Assembly: GCF_011758565.1 (NCBI RefSeq)
Contig: NZ_JAAMOX010000001.1
Location: 1,961,838-2,025,837 of the forward strand
DNA from: Lysinibacter cavernae
Lineage (GTDB): Bacteria; Actinomycetota; Actinomycetes; Actinomycetales; Microbacteriaceae
Reading direction: 5' to 3'
Length of the DNA: 64,000 bases
The translations under genes were made by a program, and so were the position numbers. Each line of letters starts with the position of its first letter. Position 1 is the first letter of the stretch. The notes under the pieces are model-generated. The model was not told where the DNA came from, did no database searches, and saw only the letters and a program-made list of their open reading frames with translations. Shown piece after piece: positions 250 through 48,810 of this stretch.

Positions 250-942
250 TTACGGCGCAACCGAAACACCCTTGAACTGTGCCTGTGGGTGGGCAATGAC
301 ATCCTTGAGGATCTCGTTGGCGGCATCACTACCGTGGTCAACCATCTTGATCGTGACAACAAGCTTGCCCTGCTCCTCGAGGTCGAGGAGACCAAGGTTC
401 ATCTGCGTAAGCTCCGACATCTTCTTGTTCGTTGCCAACGTCGTTGGGCTTCCGACAGCGGGGTGCTGAACGATGGTGTAAAGAAGAGCCGCGTCAGCGC
501 TGGCGCTCGTTGGCTTCGTGCCAACAGGGTGCTCCGAAGCATCCCAGTGATCCACCAGGTCGAGAGTTACGGCAGCTTTGAAGCTACTACTCCAGTTACG
601 GTAAGGAATGTTTGTAGTAACGGTGCCGCCAGGAACGAGCGTGTCTGCACCAGGAATTGGCACATCCTCACCGGCAACGCTGTCAGCTTCCTGCCAAACA
701 TAGTTAGCAGGAGCCGGCGCAGTCACAGGCAAACCAGTGACCGCATCAAACGTCGCGACCTGAATGTTAAATGACTTGTCAGGACCACCGGCACTGTCAT
801 TACCAATACCGTTTTCGCCAAGATTCAAGTTCGCGAAGTCGTTAAACGCAGCAGACGTCGCAAGTGCTGCAATACCCAGAAGAGCACCAGCAGCGATAAT
901 AACGCGCTTACGACCCTTGGTCTTAGTTTGAATTTCAGTCAT
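250..942 (-). CDS. TasA/camelysin-like SipW-dependent surface subunit, copy 1
   Basis: This predicted 230-aa secreted protein starts with a basic patch (KTKGRKR) and a hydrophobic stretch ending ALATSAAFNDF, the alternate signal peptide of SipW-processed TasA-like proteins. The remainder is an acidic, beta-rich-looking domain without a membrane anchor, as expected for a fibre or matrix subunit. ATG at 942 has GAAAGGGA upstream. The next gene on the same strand starts at 123 after a 126-bp spacer. It is identical to the gene at 6803-7495. Family assignment rests on signal type, size and context rather than a clear domain signature. Confidence 0.75.
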   Translation of the reverse strand: MTEIQTKTKGRKRVIIAAGALLGIAALATSAAFNDFANLNLGENGIGNDSAGGPDKSFNIQVATFDAVTGLPVTAPAPANYVWQEADSVAGEDVPIPGADTLVPGGTVTTNIPYRNWSSSFKAAVTLDLVDHWDASEHPVGTKPTSASADAALLYTIVQHPAVGSPTTLATNKKMSELTQMNLGLLDLEEQGKLVVTIKMVDHGSDAANEILKDVIAHPQAQFKGVSVAP

Positions 943-3637: not shown

Positions 3638-5965
3638 TTAGCGAAGTCGACCGTGACGGCCACTTCGTTGAACGGCACTCACGCTCGTCTCGCCGACAGA
3701 GATACTGTCGGTGTGAGTGTGAATACTCGAAAACGGCATATTCTGCCCGTACTGGGCCCCCGCGTGTGAGCTTGCTTTTGCCGGCTCAGGATAAATGTCT
3801 GCCTCGGACCTTGGGACGGTTACCGATTCAGGAGTCGGTACGCCTGAATTTGTTTGAACGAACGGAACCGAAACGGTTGCGGGGACCACCGGTTCTTGGG
3901 TGTTCTGGTCTGGCAACACAGCTGGCTGATAGACCGTCGCTGAAGGCGCATCCGGCACCTGAGGCTGTGGTGCGCTCACGGATGCCGGATGAAACAGGCT
4001 GTTGGTCATCGGCGCTGGCTGAACGTACTGGCCGCTGGGCGCATGCACATATGCAGCCGGCACCGTTGGTCGAGCGTTGACTGCATTCATGGCAATGCCC
4101 GATCGCTCGTCCGAAGACGAGCCAGCATACGGATCGACCACGGGTGCTGTTGAGTACGGCGTGGCGGCTGGTAAGTATGGACGGTATTCGAATGGTTGAC
4201 CACTCTGCGAAAATGGCTGCGAGTGCGGCGCAAAGTGCTGCGATGCCGCGGCCTGGGCCGCAGCATTTGCAGCGAACTGAGCGGATTCGGCTTGGGCGAC
4301 AGCGAATCGAGCGGCTTCCGCTTGGGCCTCAGCGGTTGCCTGAGCTTCGGCAGCAACCCGAGCAGCGTGTTCGGCCGCACGGTATTGAACGGCCTGACGC
4401 TCTGCTGCTGCCTGAGCCTCAGCAGCAAGCTGGGCTTGTTCAGCAGCTGCAATACGGGCGCGTTCTTGGGCCTCGGCTTCTGCACGAGCAAGCATTTCTT
4501 GTTGCTGACGACGTTGTTCTGCGGCAGCGTGCTCTCTCGCCTCCGCTTCCATGCGCGCGATCGCTTCTTGACGAAGATGTTCTTCCGCGGCGGCGCGGGC
4601 CTGTGCTACCGCACGCGCCTGAGCAATAGCCTCAGCGGCGGCTTTCGCTTGGGCCGCGGCTTCTGCCTCGATACGAGCTTGAGCTTCGGCGGCTGATTGC
4701 GCCTCGGCAATTGCCTTCACGTGAGCCTGAGCTTGCTGCAGCGCTTGGGCCGCGGCAAGTGCCTTCGCAGCAAACGTAGCTGGATCCGTCACTCTTGGTG
4801 CGGATTCATTCAGTTGCCCGTTGCTCGGGGCAAAACTGGCCTGCTGCTGAGGAACCGCCGCGATATCGGGTGAATACGAAGTCGATATTCCACCGTTGAA
4901 TTGGTTCAGTTGCGGTGACCGAGGCGGGATGGCGTCGAACTGCCGATACGCGGCTCGATTGTCATGCTGCACCAAAACCTCTGGATCTGAGACCGCTTGA
5001 ATCGACAGCGAGGAATCGTTTGACGACCGTTCGGGAGCTGTCTGCCCAATACCGGCATCATGGTAAGGCTCGGGAAAGGCAGCAGCAGATGCCATTGCAG
5101 TGGTTTGCGAGTAGTCCGGCACAGGCGTTGATTCAACCCATGAATTGGCCACTGTTATCGTCGGTTCTGGTGTGACGATAGACGGGCCAGCGCTCGGAAG
5201 ACCTTGCATAGCGTCGTTGGCACGAACAGTGGCCCCCACCTGGCCTGGGTGAAGTACTTTTGGAGTTTCGCTTTCAGGCGAAGACGTCGCGAGCGCCTTC
5301 GCTTCTTTCGGTTTTGTCGCGAAGAACCCCTTAGCCGCAGTGGCCAGCCGCTGGAGCGGATTGATTTTCTCTGCCGGTACCACGGCGGGAGGTGTATTTA
5401 CGGGGAACGCAGCTTGGTTACCGCTGGATACAGTTGACACGTCAGACTCGCTTCCTTCTGTTGTCACTTTTTTGTAGCCGCCGGGGAAAATAAAGAAGAG
5501 AAGAAGAACTGCTCCGAGGAGAACCGCGAGACTGATGCCGAACTGCGTTTGCACGAGTGAGGCTACGTGACCCAGAACGGCAACATGGAACATATATACC
5601 TGAGCCTGCGGTATACGGTAGGGATCTGGATCCGCGTTATCGTTTGCATCACCTTTGAGGTAGACATCATAGATACCTTTGGCATCGGTCGGCTTAATAT
5701 CAACTACTCGGTGAGTAATAGTGCCCTCGCCAACGTTACGGTTGACCGTGATGATTTGGCCTTTTTTGATCTCAGATGCCGGCTGGTATTTTGAGAAAAC
5801 CATAGAACCAGTAGGGATGGCTGGTTCCATTGAACCAGAAATCACGTTGAGCGGTTTGACACCAAACACCATTGCAAGCAGAAAAACAACGATACAAAAA
5901 GCACCGATAATTGCCGCAACACTCAGAGTTGCTGATCTAACCAAGTGGTAATATTTGCTATTCAT
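3638..5965 (-). CDS. sipW: SipW-type signal peptidase I with long Ala/Gln/Glu-rich C-terminal extension
   Basis: The first 165 residues are a complete SipW/ER-type signal peptidase: TM helix about 14-35, catalytic serine in SGSMEP (Ser45), His85 in ITHRVVD replacing the bacterial lysine, a GDAND box, and a second TM about 140-162. It should cleave the SipW-dependent proteins encoded upstream. Unlike the 180-210 aa typical of the family, a further 610 residues follow: a Pro/Ser-rich part, a roughly 180-residue Ala/Gln/Glu/Arg helix-forming stretch (about 396-577) and a Pro/Gln/Tyr-rich tail. I chose ATG at 5965 (GGTGGGGG just upstream) over TTG at 5980. It is the last gene of the operon from 7495. 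Confidence 0.88.
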   Translation of the reverse strand: MNSKYYHLVRSATLSVAAIIGAFCIVVFLLAMVFGVKPLNVISGSMEPAIPTGSMVFSKYQPASEIKKGQIITVNRNVGEGTITHRVVDIKPTDAKGIYDVYLKGDANDNADPDPYRIPQAQVYMFHVAVLGHVASLVQTQFGISLAVLLGAVLLLFFIFPGGYKKVTTEGSESDVSTVSSGNQAAFPVNTPPAVVPAEKINPLQRLATAAKGFFATKPKEAKALATSSPESETPKVLHPGQVGATVRANDAMQGLPSAGPSIVTPEPTITVANSWVESTPVPDYSQTTAMASAAAFPEPYHDAGIGQTAPERSSNDSSLSIQAVSDPEVLVQHDNRAAYRQFDAIPPRSPQLNQFNGGISTSYSPDIAAVPQQQASFAPSNGQLNESAPRVTDPATFAAKALAAAQALQQAQAHVKAIAEAQSAAEAQARIEAEAAAQAKAAAEAIAQARAVAQARAAAEEHLRQEAIARMEAEAREHAAAEQRRQQQEMLARAEAEAQERARIAAAEQAQLAAEAQAAAERQAVQYRAAEHAARVAAEAQATAEAQAEAARFAVAQAESAQFAANAAAQAAASQHFAPHSQPFSQSGQPFEYRPYLPAATPYSTAPVVDPYAGSSSDERSGIAMNAVNARPTVPAAYVHAPSGQYVQPAPMTNSLFHPASVSAPQPQVPDAPSATVYQPAVLPDQNTQEPVVPATVSVPFVQTNSGVPTPESVTVPRSEADIYPEPAKASSHAGAQYGQNMPFSSIHTHTDSISVGETSVSAVQRSGRHGRLR

Positions 5966-6022: not shown

Positions 6023-6676
6023 TCATGTGTTTTCTCCCTGAAAACGAAACTCAACATTCGTCTTAGCCACGATCCAACGATTGTCAACGTCGTCAGGAAC
6101 ACTAATAGTCACATCAAGCATTTTGTAATCCCCCGGACTAATCTGCGTATCCCAAACCATCGTCGTCAAATCAGACGCCGGCACGTTGTTATACAAGACA
6201 GTTCCCGAATCTTTCACCGTGAACTCAAGCTGATCAAACAACTCAAGAAAGCTTCCCGAAGATGCGTCCTTCGTCTCACCCAACGGATCAGGGTCAAGGA
6301 TCTCCATAACCAATGAAGAACCAACCCTAGGGCTGTTATTCTTCACCGCAATACGAAAGTCAATCTTCATACCAGGCCCTACCGCCCGACTCTTACCTTC
6401 TTTTGCAAAATCAATCTGATAACCATCTTCAAGGGACTGATACTCAAGACCCAGGTCTGATCTCCCTTGAGCCCAATCGGCCTCAACCGGCTCCCATCCG
6501 TTCAATAATGAACCGGCCACTTGCAAGTCATAACGATTATTTGCACCATCAAACTCCACAACACTGTCACCGTAGTCAGTGAAAGCTGCAGCCGTCGTCA
6601 ACAGCACACAGCCCAGCAGAACGCCGCTGGCAAGGAGAAATCTCCTATTACCGGTTTTGTCCTTCGTTGCAGACAT
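6023..6676 (-). CDS. SipW-dependent secreted protein, second fibre-locus subunit
   Basis: This 217-aa secreted protein follows the TasA-like gene and precedes sipW by 57 bp. It has an alternate signal peptide (basic start, hydrophobic segment, TTAAAFTDY). The rest looks like a beta-sandwich, ending in a pattern SPGDYKMLDVTISVP...NVEFRF near the C-terminus that recurs in the ectodomain of the sigma fusion at 7962-9593. ATG at 6676 with TAAGGA upstream. Its first 41 codons are duplicated at 1-123. Role as a minor subunit or anchor is inferred. Confidence 0.75.
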   Translation of the reverse strand: MSATKDKTGNRRFLLASGVLLGCVLLTTAAAFTDYGDSVVEFDGANNRYDLQVAGSLLNGWEPVEADWAQGRSDLGLEYQSLEDGYQIDFAKEGKSRAVGPGMKIDFRIAVKNNSPRVGSSLVMEILDPDPLGETKDASSGSFLELFDQLEFTVKDSGTVLYNNVPASDLTTMVWDTQISPGDYKMLDVTISVPDDVDNRWIVAKTNVEFRFQGENT

Positions 6677-6712
6677 ATGGTCAATCCTTATTGCTGAGTG
6701 AATGAAGATGCC

Positions 6713-6730
6713 TGTGACAGAAACGTCACA
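6713..6730. promoter_or_regulatory. inverted repeat TGTGAC-N6-GTCACA (right copy)
   Basis: Same element as at 160-177, in the spacer between the two subunit genes of the right-hand repeat copy. Confidence 0.4.
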
Positions 6731-6802
6731 TGCAGCTACCGAGACGAGGGGAAAAGCAACCAACTACCGGAGCGGCAGCCTTTCCCCCCAATCGATTAAG
6801 CG

Positions 6803-7495
6803 TTACGGCGCAACCGAAACACCCTTGAACTGTGCCTGTGGGTGGGCAATGACATCCTTGAGGATCTCGTTGGCGGCATCACTACCGTGGTCAACCATCT
6901 TGATCGTGACAACAAGCTTGCCCTGCTCCTCGAGGTCGAGGAGACCAAGGTTCATCTGCGTAAGCTCCGACATCTTCTTGTTCGTTGCCAACGTCGTTGG
7001 GCTTCCGACAGCGGGGTGCTGAACGATGGTGTAAAGAAGAGCCGCGTCAGCGCTGGCGCTCGTTGGCTTCGTGCCAACAGGGTGCTCCGAAGCATCCCAG
7101 TGATCCACCAGGTCGAGAGTTACGGCAGCTTTGAAGCTACTACTCCAGTTACGGTAAGGAATGTTTGTAGTAACGGTGCCGCCAGGAACGAGCGTGTCTG
7201 CACCAGGAATTGGCACATCCTCACCGGCAACGCTGTCAGCTTCCTGCCAAACATAGTTAGCAGGAGCCGGCGCAGTCACAGGCAAACCAGTGACCGCATC
7301 AAACGTCGCGACCTGAATGTTAAATGACTTGTCAGGACCACCGGCACTGTCATTACCAATACCGTTTTCGCCAAGATTCAAGTTCGCGAAGTCGTTAAAC
7401 GCAGCAGACGTCGCAAGTGCTGCAATACCCAGAAGAGCACCAGCAGCGATAATAACGCGCTTACGACCCTTGGTCTTAGTTTGAATTTCAGTCAT
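6803..7495 (-). CDS. TasA/camelysin-like SipW-dependent surface subunit, copy 2
   Basis: Identical in sequence to 250-942 (230 aa, alternate signal peptide ending ALATSAAFNDF). It is the first gene of the minus-strand order subunit A, subunit B, sipW. ATG at 7495 is preceded by GAAAGGGA. An ECF-like promoter (GGAAC-N16-GTCT, 7556-7580) lies about 60 bp upstream, and a sigma/anti-sigma fusion gene is divergent from it. The likely role is major subunit of an extracellular fibre or matrix, processed by the operon's own signal peptidase. Confidence 0.78.
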   Translation of the reverse strand: MTEIQTKTKGRKRVIIAAGALLGIAALATSAAFNDFANLNLGENGIGNDSAGGPDKSFNIQVATFDAVTGLPVTAPAPANYVWQEADSVAGEDVPIPGADTLVPGGTVTTNIPYRNWSSSFKAAVTLDLVDHWDASEHPVGTKPTSASADAALLYTIVQHPAVGSPTTLATNKKMSELTQMNLGLLDLEEQGKLVVTIKMVDHGSDAANEILKDVIAHPQAQFKGVSVAP

Positions 7496-7515
7496 GACGA
7501 CCAAATCCCTTTCGT

Positions 7516-7961
7516 ATGTAGCTGTGTGAGTGTGCCTCCTGCGCCAGAGCGCAACAGACACAACTGTCGGGAAAAGTTCCCCCCAACAGAACGCACCCCT
7601 AGAATCGGTGCACATTGCATTTGTGCCCCGAAAGCTTCAAGCATTACATGAAAGTAAAAAGATTTTTTCCTTGCTTCCATGAGCGACTTCATCCCACTGA
7701 AGCGTGCCGCAGCGTGCGTGTTCATTTCCCCAAACAAACACTTAGTGCTTTCTCAATCTGCACAGTACACCAAGCTCCATTCAAATTGTGCAATTCAAAG
7801 AGAAAATGACACAAAACATCGGATGCAGTGACGCTTGTCAACCCACGGAGTTAGACACACAGAAATACACAACACCCCAAATGTAGCCTTTGTGGATAAT
7901 TTGCACACAATTTCCCTTTGGACTTGACAAATTCCTGCGACCGGGGTGAGACTCTTCGTAT
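7516..7961. other. divergent regulatory region between fibre operon and sigma-factor gene
   Basis: 446 bp with lower GC and no convincing gene. It holds the ECF-like promoter described separately, plus gcttcaagc at 7634-7642 and ttccccaaacaaacact at 7726-7742, the latter preceded by tgaagcg; both recur upstream of subunit copy 1. TTGACA at 7924-7929 may be part of the sigma-gene promoter, but no matching -10 box is clear. Confidence 0.55.
7556..7580 (-). promoter_or_regulatory. ECF-like promoter GGAAC-N16-GTCT for the fibre operon
   Basis: Read on the minus strand, GGAAC (7580-7576) is followed after exactly 16 nt by GTCT (7559-7556), the common spacing of ECF-sigma promoters. Transcription would start near 7549 and give a leader of about 54 nt before ATG at 7495. 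The adjacent ECF-type gene is the natural candidate regulator. A match this short can arise by chance. Confidence 0.4.
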
Positions 7962-9593
7962 ATGTTAGAGTCCAAAGCGTTAAATGCGCAGTCAAGGGGC
8001 TCAGGGGATTCCGTATACGCAAGAGTTGAACTGCTCTTTTTGTCTGAATCTCCCGAGTTGCGCAACTACCTCAAGAAACTCGGTGCTTCGTGGGACGAGG
8101 CCGAGGACATTGTCGCGCAAACTTTCGAGATCTATCTCACTCAATCGCTGGCGGGTAAAGAACCGCATACGAATCCCAAAAGCTATCTCTTCACTATCGC
8201 AAAACGGCAGCTCTTCAAGATTTGGAACGACAAATCCCCAACCGTATCCGTTGAACAGGATTACGTTGAGGTATCCACTCCGTTCATTGATACGGCCACG
8301 GAAAAGCTCGAAAAGACGCTCGTCGGGGCTGCCTTTACGATGCTCCAGCCAATAGATCAGAAAATCGTCTGGATGCTGCTGGTCCAACAGCGCTCGGCAC
8401 AAGAAACGGCCGACGCGCTCGGCTACCAGGTCAACAACACGCGCACGAGGTTTCACCGGGCGAAGCAGACCTTCCGCGAAAATTACCTGAAATTGTATTC
8501 AGAGTCGACCTCAGATCCCGCATGCAAAGACACTTCCGAGCTGCTATCCCGATACGTTCTCGGGTCGGCGCCTGAGTCGCACCGCCGCAAGCTCCACGCT
8601 CACCTTGAACAGTGTGAGCGTTGCACCCGAGTTCTCTCCGAACTCACAGATGAAGCGGCCAGCATCCAGCGCATCCCAATCATCATCTGGGCTCCGGTCG
8701 GCGCAAGCGGACTCCTCGCTACTTCCATGATCTCCGGGGGAACATCAGCCAAAGCCGCAGCGATGTCGCTGCTTGCACAGAAGCTGCTCATTGGCGGTGT
8801 CGGCGCGGCCCTCGTCACAGCGGGCATTGTCATGATTGCCACTTCGCAAGGCGAGCAGTCAACGGCGCTCGAGCAGCCTGCCCCAACGGCTTCGGCGTCA
8901 GCCCAAGCCACAGCGGAGCCAACAATCAATCCGGCTCCAGTTCCTGCCACAGAAGAAACCCGGCCGCAGCAGCGCGCGGCGCCATACTCGGTGCCCGAAG
9001 TTCCGGACAAACTGCTCGCAGTGACTCCAGAACTCACTCAGCTAGACACTCCGCTCCCCGGCAAAACCGAGGCTTGGAGCATGAGCGCCCAAAACGTGAC
9101 ATCCACTTACGAACTTCCAATATTCCTCGAGATACGCGGCGTCGAGCAAAGCGACAGCGACGAGACTCTGTACCTCACGCTCAAGTCCGACAGCGGAGAA
9201 ATTGTCTCAAACCTGCCGATCGCTGAGGCCTTGGGGCACTCCGTCAAGGTTTCCACAATCAACCCGAATGAATCAGTGAGCGTTTCCGGAGAGCTGTCTC
9301 GTCCGCTATCCGACAGCGACCAATCACTCTCGGCGAACATGGACTTCCGATTCAGCTCAGAGGCGACGTTGCCGGATATCGATGACGAAACAAATCCTCC
9401 CCCGCAGAAGCATCAGCCACCGAGCGATCGTCCTGGCACAAATCCGCCCGGTGCAGACCGTGATGGAGGCCAAGGACTTACTCTCACGGGGCAATCCGTC
9501 ACCAGCTTTGTCACAATCGGCCTTGGCCTTCTGTTGCTCGGCTACGCGCTCATTCGACGTCGACGCGACACCGGCGAAACGAAACCACTCTAA
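7962..9593 (+). CDS. ECF sigma factor fused to anti-sigma zinc finger, membrane helix, subunit-like ectodomain and LTLTG sorting-type tail
   Basis: A 543-aa protein with unusual order: sigma-70 region 2 (about 24-95, with DEAEDIVAQTFEIYL), region 4 helix-turn-helix (about 115-175), a ZAS-type anti-sigma finger (Cys188, then H214-x3-C218-x2-C221), a TM helix (about 275-293), a Pro/Ala-rich linker (303-340), an ectodomain (about 365-470), and a C-terminus with LTLTG (506-510), a hydrophobic helix (512-531) and RRRR. The ending matches a sortase signal, or alternatively a second membrane anchor. ATG at 7962 with GGGGTGAG upstream. Divergent from the SipW/TasA operon it probably controls. No separate anti-sigma gene or sortase is nearby. 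Confidence 0.85.
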   Translation: MLESKALNAQSRGSGDSVYARVELLFLSESPELRNYLKKLGASWDEAEDIVAQTFEIYLTQSLAGKEPHTNPKSYLFTIAKRQLFKIWNDKSPTVSVEQDYVEVSTPFIDTATEKLEKTLVGAAFTMLQPIDQKIVWMLLVQQRSAQETADALGYQVNNTRTRFHRAKQTFRENYLKLYSESTSDPACKDTSELLSRYVLGSAPESHRRKLHAHLEQCERCTRVLSELTDEAASIQRIPIIIWAPVGASGLLATSMISGGTSAKAAAMSLLAQKLLIGGVGAALVTAGIVMIATSQGEQSTALEQPAPTASASAQATAEPTINPAPVPATEETRPQQRAAPYSVPEVPDKLLAVTPELTQLDTPLPGKTEAWSMSAQNVTSTYELPIFLEIRGVEQSDSDETLYLTLKSDSGEIVSNLPIAEALGHSVKVSTINPNESVSVSGELSRPLSDSDQSLSANMDFRFSSEATLPDIDDETNPPPQKHQPPSDRPGTNPPGADRDGGQGLTLTGQSVTSFVTIGLGLLLLGYALIRRRRDTGETKPL

Positions 9594-45158: not shown

Positions 45159-46649
45159 CTACTCTTCTGCGGACCGGCGCCTCTTGGCGATAGTCAGGGC
45201 GGCGAAGCCCATCGCGAGCAGGGCGGCGACCGCGCCTCCGGCCATTGCAAGGTCGCTACCGGTCATGCTCAGCCCGGCACCACTCACTACGGTTCCCTTC
45301 GGAACAATGTTTACGACTGCCTCGGCATCCTTACACAGCGCGGCAACAGTCGGGGTATCCGGGTCCGTCGCGCACTCGGTCGCCACGTTCGTGAGGCTGC
45401 CAGAGGGGGTGTTTGCATTCACCGTGACGTTCAGCACAACCGCAGGAGCAACTTCGTTGTAGCCGAGGTACCCGTTGAGCGTACAGTTCAGGGTTCCGCC
45501 GTAGCCGGCACTATTTGCGCCGGTAACCGCGCAGCCATCCCAGCGAGGATACGTCGGGGCACCCGCCGTCGAAACGGTGTTGACCTTGAGGTTTCCAGGG
45601 ATCGGGTCGCTGAGCGTCACCGGGTGAACCGCACCGAGACCGGTGTTTCCAACCTCGATCGTGTAATCAAAGTTTGATCCTGCTGCAACCGTTCCTACGC
45701 TCGCAACCTTTGTAATGTACACACCTGGGTCACGCGGAACCTCACATCCCGCTGGCGAGACCGGAGGGTACTCAAGTGTGACAACATCTGTCGGGTTCAT
45801 CTCGAAGGTGATGGTGAGCGGCTCGCGCCACTTGGTCGAGTCGAGGGTTGGGTCGTAGACGTAGTTCTCCCAGTCAGGAGTCTCGCCTTCCTTGACGACC
45901 CGCCATCCGGGCCATCCAACGGCGATGTCGTCGTCGTTCACAACCGCTCCAGGCCAGAGGAGGCTGCCACTGGTCTGCCCCGCAGGGATCGTATCGACCC
46001 TGACCAGGGTGCCGTCTGCCTGACGCCACGTCGCCGTCACCGGCAGAGAATCTGGATTCTCAACGCCAACGGTTTCAAGGTCGTAGAAGACCCTGGCAAC
46101 ATCACGCTGACAGATCGCCCGCGCGTTCATGTGCAGCTCTTTCTCTGGACCCGCGATCGAAAGCACAAGATCAAAATGCACTGAAACGGTTCCCTGTTCC
46201 TTATAGTTACCGCTCGTCGCGGCCTCGGGGAACTCGTAGTTGACGGTAATCGAGGTGGTATCGCCCATCGGCAGCAGGATGTCAGCCACCTGGGTATCTA
46301 CGCCGTTGTAGTCGAACACCTGCTGACCGTTGATCGTAAAGTCTTTGTAAAACTGGTCGTTTACGTCACCGCCGAGCACAACATTCGTAATGGTGGCTTT
46401 CAGCTGTCCCTCAGCGGGACCGTCGTTGCGCACCCACACCGTTTTGCTATCGGTGTCCCCAGGAACCACCCGTGGGTTCGGATACATCGGGATGGTTGTG
46501 GTGCCCTCGTACGGGCCGGTTGGCGACCAGCTCAGCCCGATAGCGTCCTCATAGGTTGTGTCGGCAAACGCTGCCGAGCTCACCGATGCGGCACCGATGA
46601 GGGCCGCCGTCACCACGAATATTGCGCTCCTCGCGAGTAGCCTGTTCAT
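45159..46649 (-). CDS. cell-wall-anchored DUF11-domain surface protein (LSMTG tail)
   Basis: 496 aa. Secretory signal (LLARSAIFVVTAALIGAASVSSAAFA), an N-terminal beta-sandwich resembling TasA-type subunits (PMGDTTSITVNYEFPEA), a DUF11-like repeat (about 310-420: PGVYITKVASVGTVAAGSNF...YTIEVGNTGLGAVHPVTLSD), and a C-terminal sorting-type tail: LSMTG (460-464), hydrophobic helix, then KRRRSAEE. LSMTG departs from canonical LPxTG. It overlaps the signal peptidase stop by ATGA and is the last gene of the operon, probably the wall anchor of the fibre. Confidence 0.82.
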   Translation of the reverse strand: MNRLLARSAIFVVTAALIGAASVSSAAFADTTYEDAIGLSWSPTGPYEGTTTIPMYPNPRVVPGDTDSKTVWVRNDGPAEGQLKATITNVVLGGDVNDQFYKDFTINGQQVFDYNGVDTQVADILLPMGDTTSITVNYEFPEAATSGNYKEQGTVSVHFDLVLSIAGPEKELHMNARAICQRDVARVFYDLETVGVENPDSLPVTATWRQADGTLVRVDTIPAGQTSGSLLWPGAVVNDDDIAVGWPGWRVVKEGETPDWENYVYDPTLDSTKWREPLTITFEMNPTDVVTLEYPPVSPAGCEVPRDPGVYITKVASVGTVAAGSNFDYTIEVGNTGLGAVHPVTLSDPIPGNLKVNTVSTAGAPTYPRWDGCAVTGANSAGYGGTLNCTLNGYLGYNEVAPAVVLNVTVNANTPSGSLTNVATECATDPDTPTVAALCKDAEAVVNIVPKGTVVSGAGLSMTGSDLAMAGGAVAALLAMGFAALTIAKRRRSAEE

Positions 46650-47281
46650 GAGAGTTCCTCCTGTTGCGCACGTTCTTGGCGAGTTCTTCTAAAAGACAGG
46701 GTGAGGGTCACTGCGGCATAGCCGATCAGCACGACTCCAACGGCAGGCACTGCCCAGGCGCGCAGGTCATTCGGCACTGCCTGGGTTGCGTAGCCCACGT
46801 AGGGTAGCGAGTACAGCACTTTGCCTTTGACCTGGTCTGCGACAATCGGTTCGTCGTTTGCTCCGTTGGCGTCGCCCCTCGTCACCAGTTGCGCTTCGCC
46901 GCCTACGACGCTCTTCTCAACAACCCTGTGGGTGATGAGCATGGGATCTGCCGAGTTGGGCTGGAACGTGATGACGTCGCCAACCCTGATGTTGTCGATA
47001 TCGGTCGGCTGCGTCACGATAAGGTCGCCGGGGTGGATGGCCGGATTCATCGACCCGGTAAGGACCGCGAGCGGCACGGCACCGATGATACGCGGAACAA
47101 CAAGAGCGGCGAGAGCGACGAGGCCAACAGCGATGGCTGCGAATGTGAGCGCCCAACGCGCCACTCGACGCGGCCACGACCGCTGCTGCGGTGTCGCAGT
47201 TTCTGCACTTGGAGCATCCTCACGTCCGTGCCGAGGACGGCGAGCGGACTCAGGACGCTGGGTGCGAGTTACGGTACTCAT
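46646..47281 (-). CDS. sipW: SipW-type signal peptidase I (second locus)
   Basis: 211 aa. TM helix about 42-62, Ser77 in TGSMNP, His118 in LITHRVVE (SipW/ER-type His instead of Lys), GDAN at 136-139, second TM about 170-190, a basic tail. An N-terminal 40-residue polar extension is present. Overlaps its neighbours on both sides by ATGA, showing translational coupling with the substrate genes. Ordinary size, in contrast to the 775-aa relative at 3638-5965. Confidence 0.93.
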   Translation of the reverse strand: MSTVTRTQRPESARRPRHGREDAPSAETATPQQRSWPRRVARWALTFAAIAVGLVALAALVVPRIIGAVPLAVLTGSMNPAIHPGDLIVTQPTDIDNIRVGDVITFQPNSADPMLITHRVVEKSVVGGEAQLVTRGDANGANDEPIVADQVKGKVLYSLPYVGYATQAVPNDLRAWAVPAVGVVLIGYAAVTLTLSFRRTRQERAQQEELS

Positions 47282-48072
47282 GGTGTCGGTTCCCCACCGG
47301 GACGATACGTGGTGTACGAGAAGTTGAAATCAACTTTTGCGTCTCTGGAAACGCCGCTTGGCACGATCTGCCCGTTCCATGAATCGCTATCCGTCACCGT
47401 TGGTGCCGGTGTTGCGAGGCTCTCGGCGGTTCCGTTCACGGTTGCCGTGTTCTCGTAGTCACCAAGATTCTCACCGACAGAAAATTCCATACAGAGGTAG
47501 GTCTTTTGAGGCGTTGTCCAGAGCGTGTTTTTGTAGGTGCTTGCAACGAGCGGCTTCTGCGAAATCATTGCGGTTGAGAGCGGACCAGAGTACAGCGGGT
47601 TTGGTCCAGCCGTCGCACCAACCACGCAGGCGGCCGCGTCGGCAACCTTGGCAATCCGAACATGCAACAGGTTGGTGAGCAGCGGGTCGCCGTCAACGGT
47701 CACGTCGTCGAGACCCCATGACATTCCCCGGTTTCCCTGGGATTGTTCGTCGATCTCGATTGCCGCTACCTGTGGAGCATTTGGGGCGACATCCCGGAGG
47801 ATGTGCGCGGGTTGACCGCTCCCGTTCAGCTGCCGCCCGGCTTCTCCACGAGGAAGGCTCCACGCGAGTTCCTCGCCAAAGTTACTGATTCGCTTCAGAG
47901 AGGCGGGGTTCGTCTTCGGGTCGTCAACCGCAAAGTGGATATATCCGCCGGTGAGTTCCCCGTTGAAGTCGGTCTTATCAACCCAGAGCGCATACGACGT
48001 TGCGGCTACCCCGCTTCCGATCACGAGCCCTACAAGGGCCGCGATCGCCGCGTTGCGGTATCTGCTGTTCAT
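47278..48072 (-). CDS. SipW-dependent secreted protein, second subunit of locus 2
   Basis: 264 aa. Start NSRYRNAAIAALVGLVIGSGVAATSYALWVDK is an alternate signal peptide with the ALWVD box shared with the 206-aa neighbour. The rest is a larger beta-rich-looking domain with two cysteines, no anchor. It lies between the presumed major subunit and the signal peptidase, so it is probably a minor subunit or adaptor. Confidence 0.78.
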   Translation of the reverse strand: MNSRYRNAAIAALVGLVIGSGVAATSYALWVDKTDFNGELTGGYIHFAVDDPKTNPASLKRISNFGEELAWSLPRGEAGRQLNGSGQPAHILRDVAPNAPQVAAIEIDEQSQGNRGMSWGLDDVTVDGDPLLTNLLHVRIAKVADAAACVVGATAGPNPLYSGPLSTAMISQKPLVASTYKNTLWTTPQKTYLCMEFSVGENLGDYENTATVNGTAESLATPAPTVTDSDSWNGQIVPSGVSRDAKVDFNFSYTTYRPGGEPTP

Positions 48073-48140
48073 GGTGCTGCCTCTCGTCTATGGCTAACGT
48101 CTGTGTTGACTATGGATTCATTCGAGGAGAACGAAGGGGT

Positions 48141-48178
48141 GGGTGGCTTACGAAGTTTCCGGGAGTCGTAAGCCACCC
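48141..48178 (-). terminator. intra-operon hairpin after the 206-aa subunit gene
   Basis: Perfect 13-bp stem GGGTGGCTTACGA/TCGTAAGCCACCC with a 12-nt loop, 12 bp after the stop of the subunit gene. It may stop part of the transcripts or protect the upstream message, so that more subunit than signal peptidase is made. Confidence 0.65.
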
Positions 48179-48189
48179 TGGTCGGTAGG

Positions 48190-48810
48190 CTAAGGACGAA
48201 CCTGGTCGAGGGTAACGTTCAGGTCGTCAAGGAGGGCTTTGGCGTTGACGCCAACCAGCTCCTGGCCTTCGGTCCCGCTATCAAAATGAAATGTGATCAC
48301 CACGGTGTACGTGTCGTCTGTGCTGGCGGATGCCGGCGTCAGATCGTTGACCACGAGCGAGTCGCCGAGAGGCGTAGCCCCCGTACCTATCGGGGTGCCG
48401 GTCGCCGTGTCACCGAGGTAGACGCGGTATTGCCCCGTCAGTCGGCTATCGAACGTCGGCTGGCCAGCAACATCCGTGAGCGTTGGCACGTCAACCGTGA
48501 GTTTCGCCTTGAGGTTGTCACCGGAAAGATCAAGCTTGAGCGCCTGGTTGTACTCGATGGTGTCGCCAGGAACAATCAGGAACGTTGCTGGGTCGATTGA
48601 GTGCCTCGTCGCACCAACCGCTCCGTGATCAACGTCAGGACTGACATCGAACCACGATGCGCCACCCTCTGGGGAGACATCGAGGTTACCTGCAGTAATG
48701 AGTCCACCGTCAACATCCGCGTTGTCGACCCATAGTGCAAAGGTGCTGCCGCCCACGAGGAGGCCTACCCCAAGAGAGCCGATAATCAGGCCCTTAGCTG
48801 CTGTTTTCAT
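48190..48810 (-). CDS. TasA-like SipW-dependent fibre subunit (locus 2)
   Basis: 206 aa. Start KTAAKGLIIGSLGVGLLVGGSTFALWVD is the alternate signal peptide of TasA-like proteins; the compact remaining domain (LDVSPEGG...FLIVPGDTIEYNQAL...VITFHFDSG) fits the TasA/camelysin size and strand pattern. Presumed major subunit. Followed by a hairpin and then the 264-aa protein and peptidase genes. Confidence 0.83.
   Translation of the reverse strand: MKTAAKGLIIGSLGVGLLVGGSTFALWVDNADVDGGLITAGNLDVSPEGGASWFDVSPDVDHGAVGATRHSIDPATFLIVPGDTIEYNQALKLDLSGDNLKAKLTVDVPTLTDVAGQPTFDSRLTGQYRVYLGDTATGTPIGTGATPLGDSLVVNDLTPASASTDDTYTVVITFHFDSGTEGQELVGVNAKALLDDLNVTLDQVRP

Follow-up and report, generated by a model that had tools for sequence, protein, structure and literature searches.

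In the ECF48, ECF52 and ECF53 sigma factors, a single chain combines a sigma domain and a zinc finger with one or two transmembrane (TM) helices and an extracytoplasmic extension rich in Pro (PMC5826349, PMC8999054), and proteolytic release is the model proposed for their activation (PMC8999054). Such fusions of an ECF sigma factor with a zinc anti-sigma (ZAS) domain are an established actinobacterial type, as an earlier, preliminary description of the locus studied here had stated (PMC8999054, PMC5826349), and the signals to which they respond in Actinobacteria are mostly unknown. Sigma factor and membrane anti-sigma factor also share one chain in IutY of Pseudomonas putida (ECF243), which is freed by Prc and RseP (PMC8999054). 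A third precedent is the RsgI/SigI system of Clostridium thermocellum, in which genes of an extracellular machinery are controlled by a membrane anti-sigma factor whose ectodomain senses the substrate and which is freed by RseP (PMC12203970).

Here we analyse a protein encoded in a 64,000-nt stretch of the Lysinibacter cavernae genome (the window) that is a variant of the fused ECF48/52/53 architecture: the probable local sigma factor of a fibre operon carries a membrane anchor and an ectodomain, the latter being a relative of T, an anchor-type surface protein of the same locus. By architecture it can be likened to ECF48, ECF53 and ECF52 (SCO4117 of Streptomyces coelicolor), with which it shares the overall chain layout. 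While ECF52 ends in a carbohydrate-binding module, the window protein ends in a fibre-anchor-like domain plus a sorting-type tail and is encoded beside a SipW locus. With IutY it has in common that sigma and anti-sigma parts reside in one polypeptide; IutY serves Gram-negative iron signalling and, unlike the window protein, is not known to carry a sorting tail or a fibre domain. The likeness to RsgI/SigI lies in the proposed mode of action, since in that system sigma and anti-sigma factor are separate proteins, sigma-I is not of the ECF type, and no sorting tail is known.

Domain architecture of the fused sigma factor

The gene is a complete open reading frame, in which all five parts that the preliminary description had read from the sequence (sigma regions 2 and 4, ZAS finger, TM helix, ectodomain and an LTLTG-helix-RRRR end) are borne out by Pfam, hydropathy and sequence (Table 1). 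When the segments were searched with HMMs, Pfam recovered the two sigma regions, at scores slightly below the curated cut-offs, and the zinc finger above its cut-off, and NCBIfam returned TIGR02937 (sigma70-ECF, E 1e-8) together with several ECF families. Regions 2 and 4 occur in order without region 3, which makes the product a sigma factor of the ECF type, and the combination of a C-terminal zinc anti-sigma finger with a TM helix in one chain is that of the fused ECF48/52/53 proteins. The TM region aligns with that of other fused ECFs. No Pfam domain was found in the extension, so that the carbohydrate-binding module of ECF52 has no counterpart here.

Table 1. Features of the SipW locus and of the sigma-factor gene, in window positions
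Feature	Position	Strand	Basis or remark
First copy of fibre subunit A	250..942	-	B (first copy) and T come next, left of the window
SipW-type signal peptidase with long Ala/Gln/Pro-rich C-terminal extension	3638..5965	-	TIGR02228 above cut-off; NF046067, E 2e-16
Second copy of fibre subunit B, with TasA-like model	6023..6676	-	Homology, model
Second copy of fibre subunit A; SipW-type signal peptide, mature protein beginning AFNDF	6803..7495	-	TIGR04088, E 0.006; homologous to B
Putative ECF-type promoter ahead of gene A, GGAACTT-N14-GTCT	7556..7580	-	Single match in window, 0.08 expected, for a pattern written post hoc, after the site was seen
Fused ECF sigma factor / zinc anti-sigma finger / TM / T-like ectodomain / sorting-type tail	7962..9593	+	543 aa
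Sigma-70 region 2, residues 26-85	8037..8216	+	Pfam PF04542 Sigma70_r2, E 5e-5
Sigma-70 region 4, residues 123-169	8328..8468	+	Pfam PF08281 Sigma70_r4_2, E 7e-4
ZAS-type zinc finger, C-x25-H-x3-C-x2-C, residues 188-221	8523..8624	+	Pfam PF13490 zf-HC2, E 9e-8
Weak hydrophobic stretch, residues 240-258	8679..8735	+	Hydropathy 1.62; comparable stretch in many paralogues
Transmembrane helix, residues 275-293	8784..8840	+	Hydropathy 2.33
Pro/Ala/Thr-rich linker, residues 296-340	8847..8981	+	Sequence
T-like (fibre-anchor-like) beta domain, residues 341-470	8982..9371	+	Homology to T
LTLTG sorting-type motif, residues 506-510	9477..9491	+	Sequence, match to T, genome tail consensus
C-terminal helix plus RRRR, residues 513-535	9498..9566	+	Hydropathy 2.11 (513-531); RRRR = 532-535

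With one helix ahead of the ectodomain, the sigma part is predicted to lie inside the cell, residues ~295-512 outside and the RRRR end inside again, in agreement with the positive-inside rule. Were the weak hydrophobic stretch to cross the membrane as well, the ectodomain would face inside, which we consider unlikely because a Pro-rich linker, a T-like domain and a sorting-type tail are all typical of exported sequence.

As for the tail, the 53 distinct sorting tails of this genome define a consensus L-[A/S/T/P/V]-x-T-G (L in 51/53, T in 47/53 and G in 53/53), the commonest motif being LAVTG. LTLTG fits this pattern and is thus an unremarkable tail for this genome. The protein possesses an LxxTG-type motif, a hydrophobic helix and a basic end, as expected of a sortase substrate, and the genome encodes three sortases; it starts directly with the sigma domain and lacks a cleavable N-terminal signal peptide. 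No sortase gene was found adjoining this SipW locus. Among the fused ECFs examined, a sorting-type tail occurs only in this protein, and a literature search, with little subscription content, returned no sigma factor with such a tail. The tail had been expected to be conserved; this holds for the T proteins, in which it is always present, and fails for the ECF homologues, none of those examined having one.

The ectodomain is related to the anchor-type protein T

When residues 301-543 were compared by phmmer with ~1000 predicted proteins of the fetched loci, the best non-self match was a stand-alone protein, T, encoded at G000:C1:1960676-1961260 on the minus strand, ~0.6 kb left of the window start and within the same SipW locus. 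At E 1e-14, with 33% identity when the genome was searched, the alignment spans the domain, the Pro-rich stalk, the LTLTG motif, which is the same in both tails, and the basic end. Homology across domain and tail makes the ectodomain a member of the T family, in line with the earlier suggestion that the sensor part stems from a SipW-locus surface protein; its nearest relative is the sortase-tailed member of its own locus.

T genes are found in SipW operons of further Microbacteriaceae (G023, with three loci, G016, G173, G217, G373, G057, G330 and G013) and outside the family (G493, G634, G655, G673 and G691), and in the 13 other genomes examined T is confined to such operons. The gene order of these operons is broadly the same, running A, B, a further subunit, T, a secreted protein (with RCC1 repeats or of another kind), one more subunit and SipW. 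Sorting-type tails, consisting of LxxTG (once LxxSG), a helix and basic residues, end 15/15 T proteins examined, three of which our automatic rule had missed, their tails being longer. This anatomy suggests that T serves as the wall anchor in fibres of this type. By analogy, it would resemble TapA of the Bacillus subtilis TapA/TasA/SipW system as the minor, anchor-type partner. We know of no sorting tail in TapA and of no role for it as a regulator; the signal peptide of T, judged by eye, is conventional rather than SipW-type. A secreted-looking RCC1-repeat protein recurs in T-type SipW operons (L145 gene 13, L055 gene 11 and L143 gene 18).

Family profiles link T to the fibre subunits

The two fibre subunits, A and B, share homology, and mature A begins with AFNDF, much like the TasA donor strand, AFNDI (PMC10151520). 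The end of the ectodomain had been said to follow the same pattern as the end of subunit B. At the level of families this similarity is well above chance: in hhalign, the T/ectodomain family matched the B family at 95.3% (E 2e-8), and still at 93% once the sigma ectodomain had been left out, as against <=0.3% for four unrelated ectodomain families of other fused ECFs used as a control. Taken singly, the window ectodomain matched B only weakly (14.8%), so that the claim rests on the family profile, which gives the ectodomain its profile homology to a fibre subunit, as expected of the TasA/camelysin superfamily. In other genomes, weaker matches of the T profile likewise include SipW-type subunits.

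Structure prediction gave a low-confidence model of B (AlphaFold, pLDDT 51) whose best Foldseek match was a TasA fibre and whose three best VIA matches were all TasA (Z 10.5, 9.3 and 9.1; next row 8.0), indicating, as far as a model of this confidence can, a TasA-like fold. The ectodomain model is beta-rich (pLDDT 53). At that confidence, its best Foldseek row was the donor-strand filament 7pnb (E 0.006), and in VIA it gave nothing distinctive, the best Z of 7.5 falling to unrelated proteins. TasA is not among the best matches of this poor model, an absence that carries no weight against kinship. Searches of the T and A profiles against PDB sequences yielded nothing useful.

The sigma lineage belongs to SipW loci

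The sigma gene is divergent from the second copy of gene A. Two further genomes, G016 and G173, have a sigma gene in this slot, in each case diverging from the A gene of their SipW operon. In a tree of 75 sigma-ZAS sequences, the window protein and these two form one clade (98/92), apart from the 72 others; the G173 branch is long, which makes its exact placement less certain. The supposed tie between this sigma factor and SipW loci thereby extends to two more genomes. Both relatives retain the four zinc ligands, which correspond to C188, H214, C218 and C221 of the window protein, and end directly past the finger, at 226 and 219 aa. Because a convergent gene lies within tens of bases downstream, there is no room for a membrane part. 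We also entertained, and rejected, the idea that the G016 gene is a broken fused protein, since its next gene ends within tens of bases and the G173 gene stops at the same place.

In both genomes, T is a separate gene within the operon. Homologues that keep all five parts beside sipW, for which the preliminary description had proposed to search, were not found in the genomes covered, and neither did the 400 family and 396 order genomes surveyed (partly overlapping sets) contain a second T-sigma fusion. Long open frames in G493, G634, G673 and G691 were considered as candidates and proved to be separate T genes. Tree and gene order make the window protein the membrane-tethered representative, with a T-like ectodomain, of a sigma lineage at home in this locus.

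A further hint comes from T-type loci that lack an ECF gene. In G057 and G013, a large AAA/LuxR-type regulator, identified by Pfam, adjoins the operon, and genes of like size and start, candidates by inspection, occur at others. The slot thus looks regulatory, which supports the sigma gene being the operon's local regulator. Large AAA/LuxR-type regulators stand beside SipW operons in L188 (gene 17), L190 (gene 14) and L160 (gene 1).

A promoter motif common to the regions upstream of both A copies and of the A genes in G016 and G173 was sought as well, with just short, unconvincing matches as the outcome.

Several features of the neighbourhood deserve mention. Genes A and B lie in a direct repeat of 1493 bp, 100% identical, whose copies are 6.5 kb apart and flank sucCD and sipW; its limits are the B stop codon and a point 20 bp ahead of A, covering 6023-7515 and, in the other copy, 250 to ~962 plus sequence left of the window. 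The extension of the SipW-type peptidase amounts to ~600 residues, and SipW of G016 likewise has a long Pro/Ala-rich tail. A second SipW locus in the window (45159-48810), which has no ECF gene beside it, encodes a protein with an LSMTG tail along with two further small proteins of the SipW type. At another SipW locus of the genome, L160 (G000:C1:924000-943900, genes 6 and 8), an ECF-like protein of 212 aa that lacks a zinc finger is encoded two genes away from sipW and near a giant LxxTG protein.

A proposed fibre-sensing sigma factor and its alternatives

Four points come directly from the computation: the domain order, the homology of ectodomain and tail to T, the relation of T to the fibre subunits, and the position of the sigma lineage divergent from A. 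Our main reading, to which we assign a probability of roughly 0.5, is that the protein acts as the local ECF sigma factor for a fibre locus of the SipW/TasA type, is tethered to the membrane and kept in check by its own zinc finger, and uses a copy of T as its sensor. We infer the direction of the signal, the protease, the regulon and the wall attachment in what follows. The zinc finger would hold the sigma domain at the membrane, and fibre subunits or the growing fibre would bind the T-like ectodomain in the way expected for T itself. Docking, or its absence, would expose the protein to a site-1 protease, upon which the genome's one M50 (site-2) protease, encoded at C1:1656788, could free the sigma domain for transcription, presumably of the adjacent fibre genes. 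This sequence of events is modelled on what has been proposed for ECF48/52/53 (PMC8999054, PMC5826349). The sorting tail would allow a sortase to fix the ectodomain to the wall, or might do no more than anchor the protein in the membrane a second time. The two ideas of the preliminary description, a covalent link to the wall and release triggered by assembly, are both plausible hypotheses.

The putative sensor domain of this fused ECF has an identifiable origin, namely the anchor-type protein that belongs to the TasA-like fibre next door, which provides a concrete, testable hypothesis: that the cell gauges fibre assembly through a copy of a fibre part. Against the sensor model counts that the T-sigma fusion is a single example, and the same-slot relatives without a membrane part imply that the ectodomain is not required for the sigma factor's job at this locus. 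The failure to find a convincing promoter motif common to the A genes also counts against it.

A bolder version, tentative in our view, has the sigma factor covalently fixed to the wall: a sortase would cut LTLTG and join the ectodomain to peptidoglycan, so that the protein reports wall growth, tension or fibre load. The identity of the motif with that of T, its fit to the genome's sorting consensus, the three sortases and the lack of such a tail in every other fused ECF examined all speak for it. Yet no sortase gene lies beside the locus, the tail may be an unused inheritance from T, and sortase substrates normally enter through a cleaved N-terminal signal peptide, which is absent here. Conceivably, then, the fibre's own point of wall attachment would be the input to fibre transcription, with one polypeptide reaching from a regulator of RNA polymerase to peptidoglycan. 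If a sortase does use the tail, this would be, to our knowledge, the first wall-attached sigma factor.

Alternatively, the protein could be an ordinary envelope-stress fused ECF whose ectodomain senses a non-fibre cue, such as a ligand or wall damage, its proximity to SipW being incidental. The genome does hold ~25 other fused ECF-ZAS-TM proteins with varied ectodomains (loci L032-L053), and known ECF52 members are thought to be carbohydrate sensors (PMC5826349). We nevertheless find this unlikely, given that the ectodomain is specifically a relative of T and the sigma clade specifically associated with SipW loci. Quite unlikely, too, is a purely structural ectodomain, a decoy or nucleator that aids fibre building while the zinc finger alone controls the sigma factor, as is possibly the case in G016 and G173. 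The T-like domain and tail would suit this role and the same-slot relatives do without a membrane part, but an intact, separate T in the same locus would make a second anchor redundant. Finally, an assembly chimaera or annotation artefact, of which a perfect 1493-bp repeat in the locus and a genus represented by this single genome might make one wary, is very improbable, considering that 33% identity precludes a chimaera with T, that the frame is open for 547 codons and scores as coding, and that the repeat stops ~450 bp short of it.

Other fused ECFs pair with giant surface proteins

The sigma part of the window protein matches 26 ORFs of the genome, nearly all of them fused; T accounts for the 27th match. 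Of the 24 fused ECFs examined, 20 directly adjoin a protein with a sortase-type tail, as compared to 3% of the other genes in the same stretches. These neighbours are usually giant (1500-2500 aa), and their genes often overlap the sigma gene by a few bases. In other genomes, 10/46 fused ECFs have a sortase-tailed neighbour. Sequence comparison revealed no domain common to the adhesin-paired fused ECFs and their partner adhesins. Since most of the genome's other fused ECFs have a giant surface protein of the sortase type as partner, there may be a general arrangement in which each surface structure has its own sigma factor, from which the window protein departs in its partner, its tail and the origin of its ectodomain. 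Three adhesin-linked fused ECFs (L032 genes 5 and 8, L036 gene 11) carry a Pro-rich stalk followed by short, similar ends, ETESWVVITP, ETEGWVVVDE and TTPGWEAFD.
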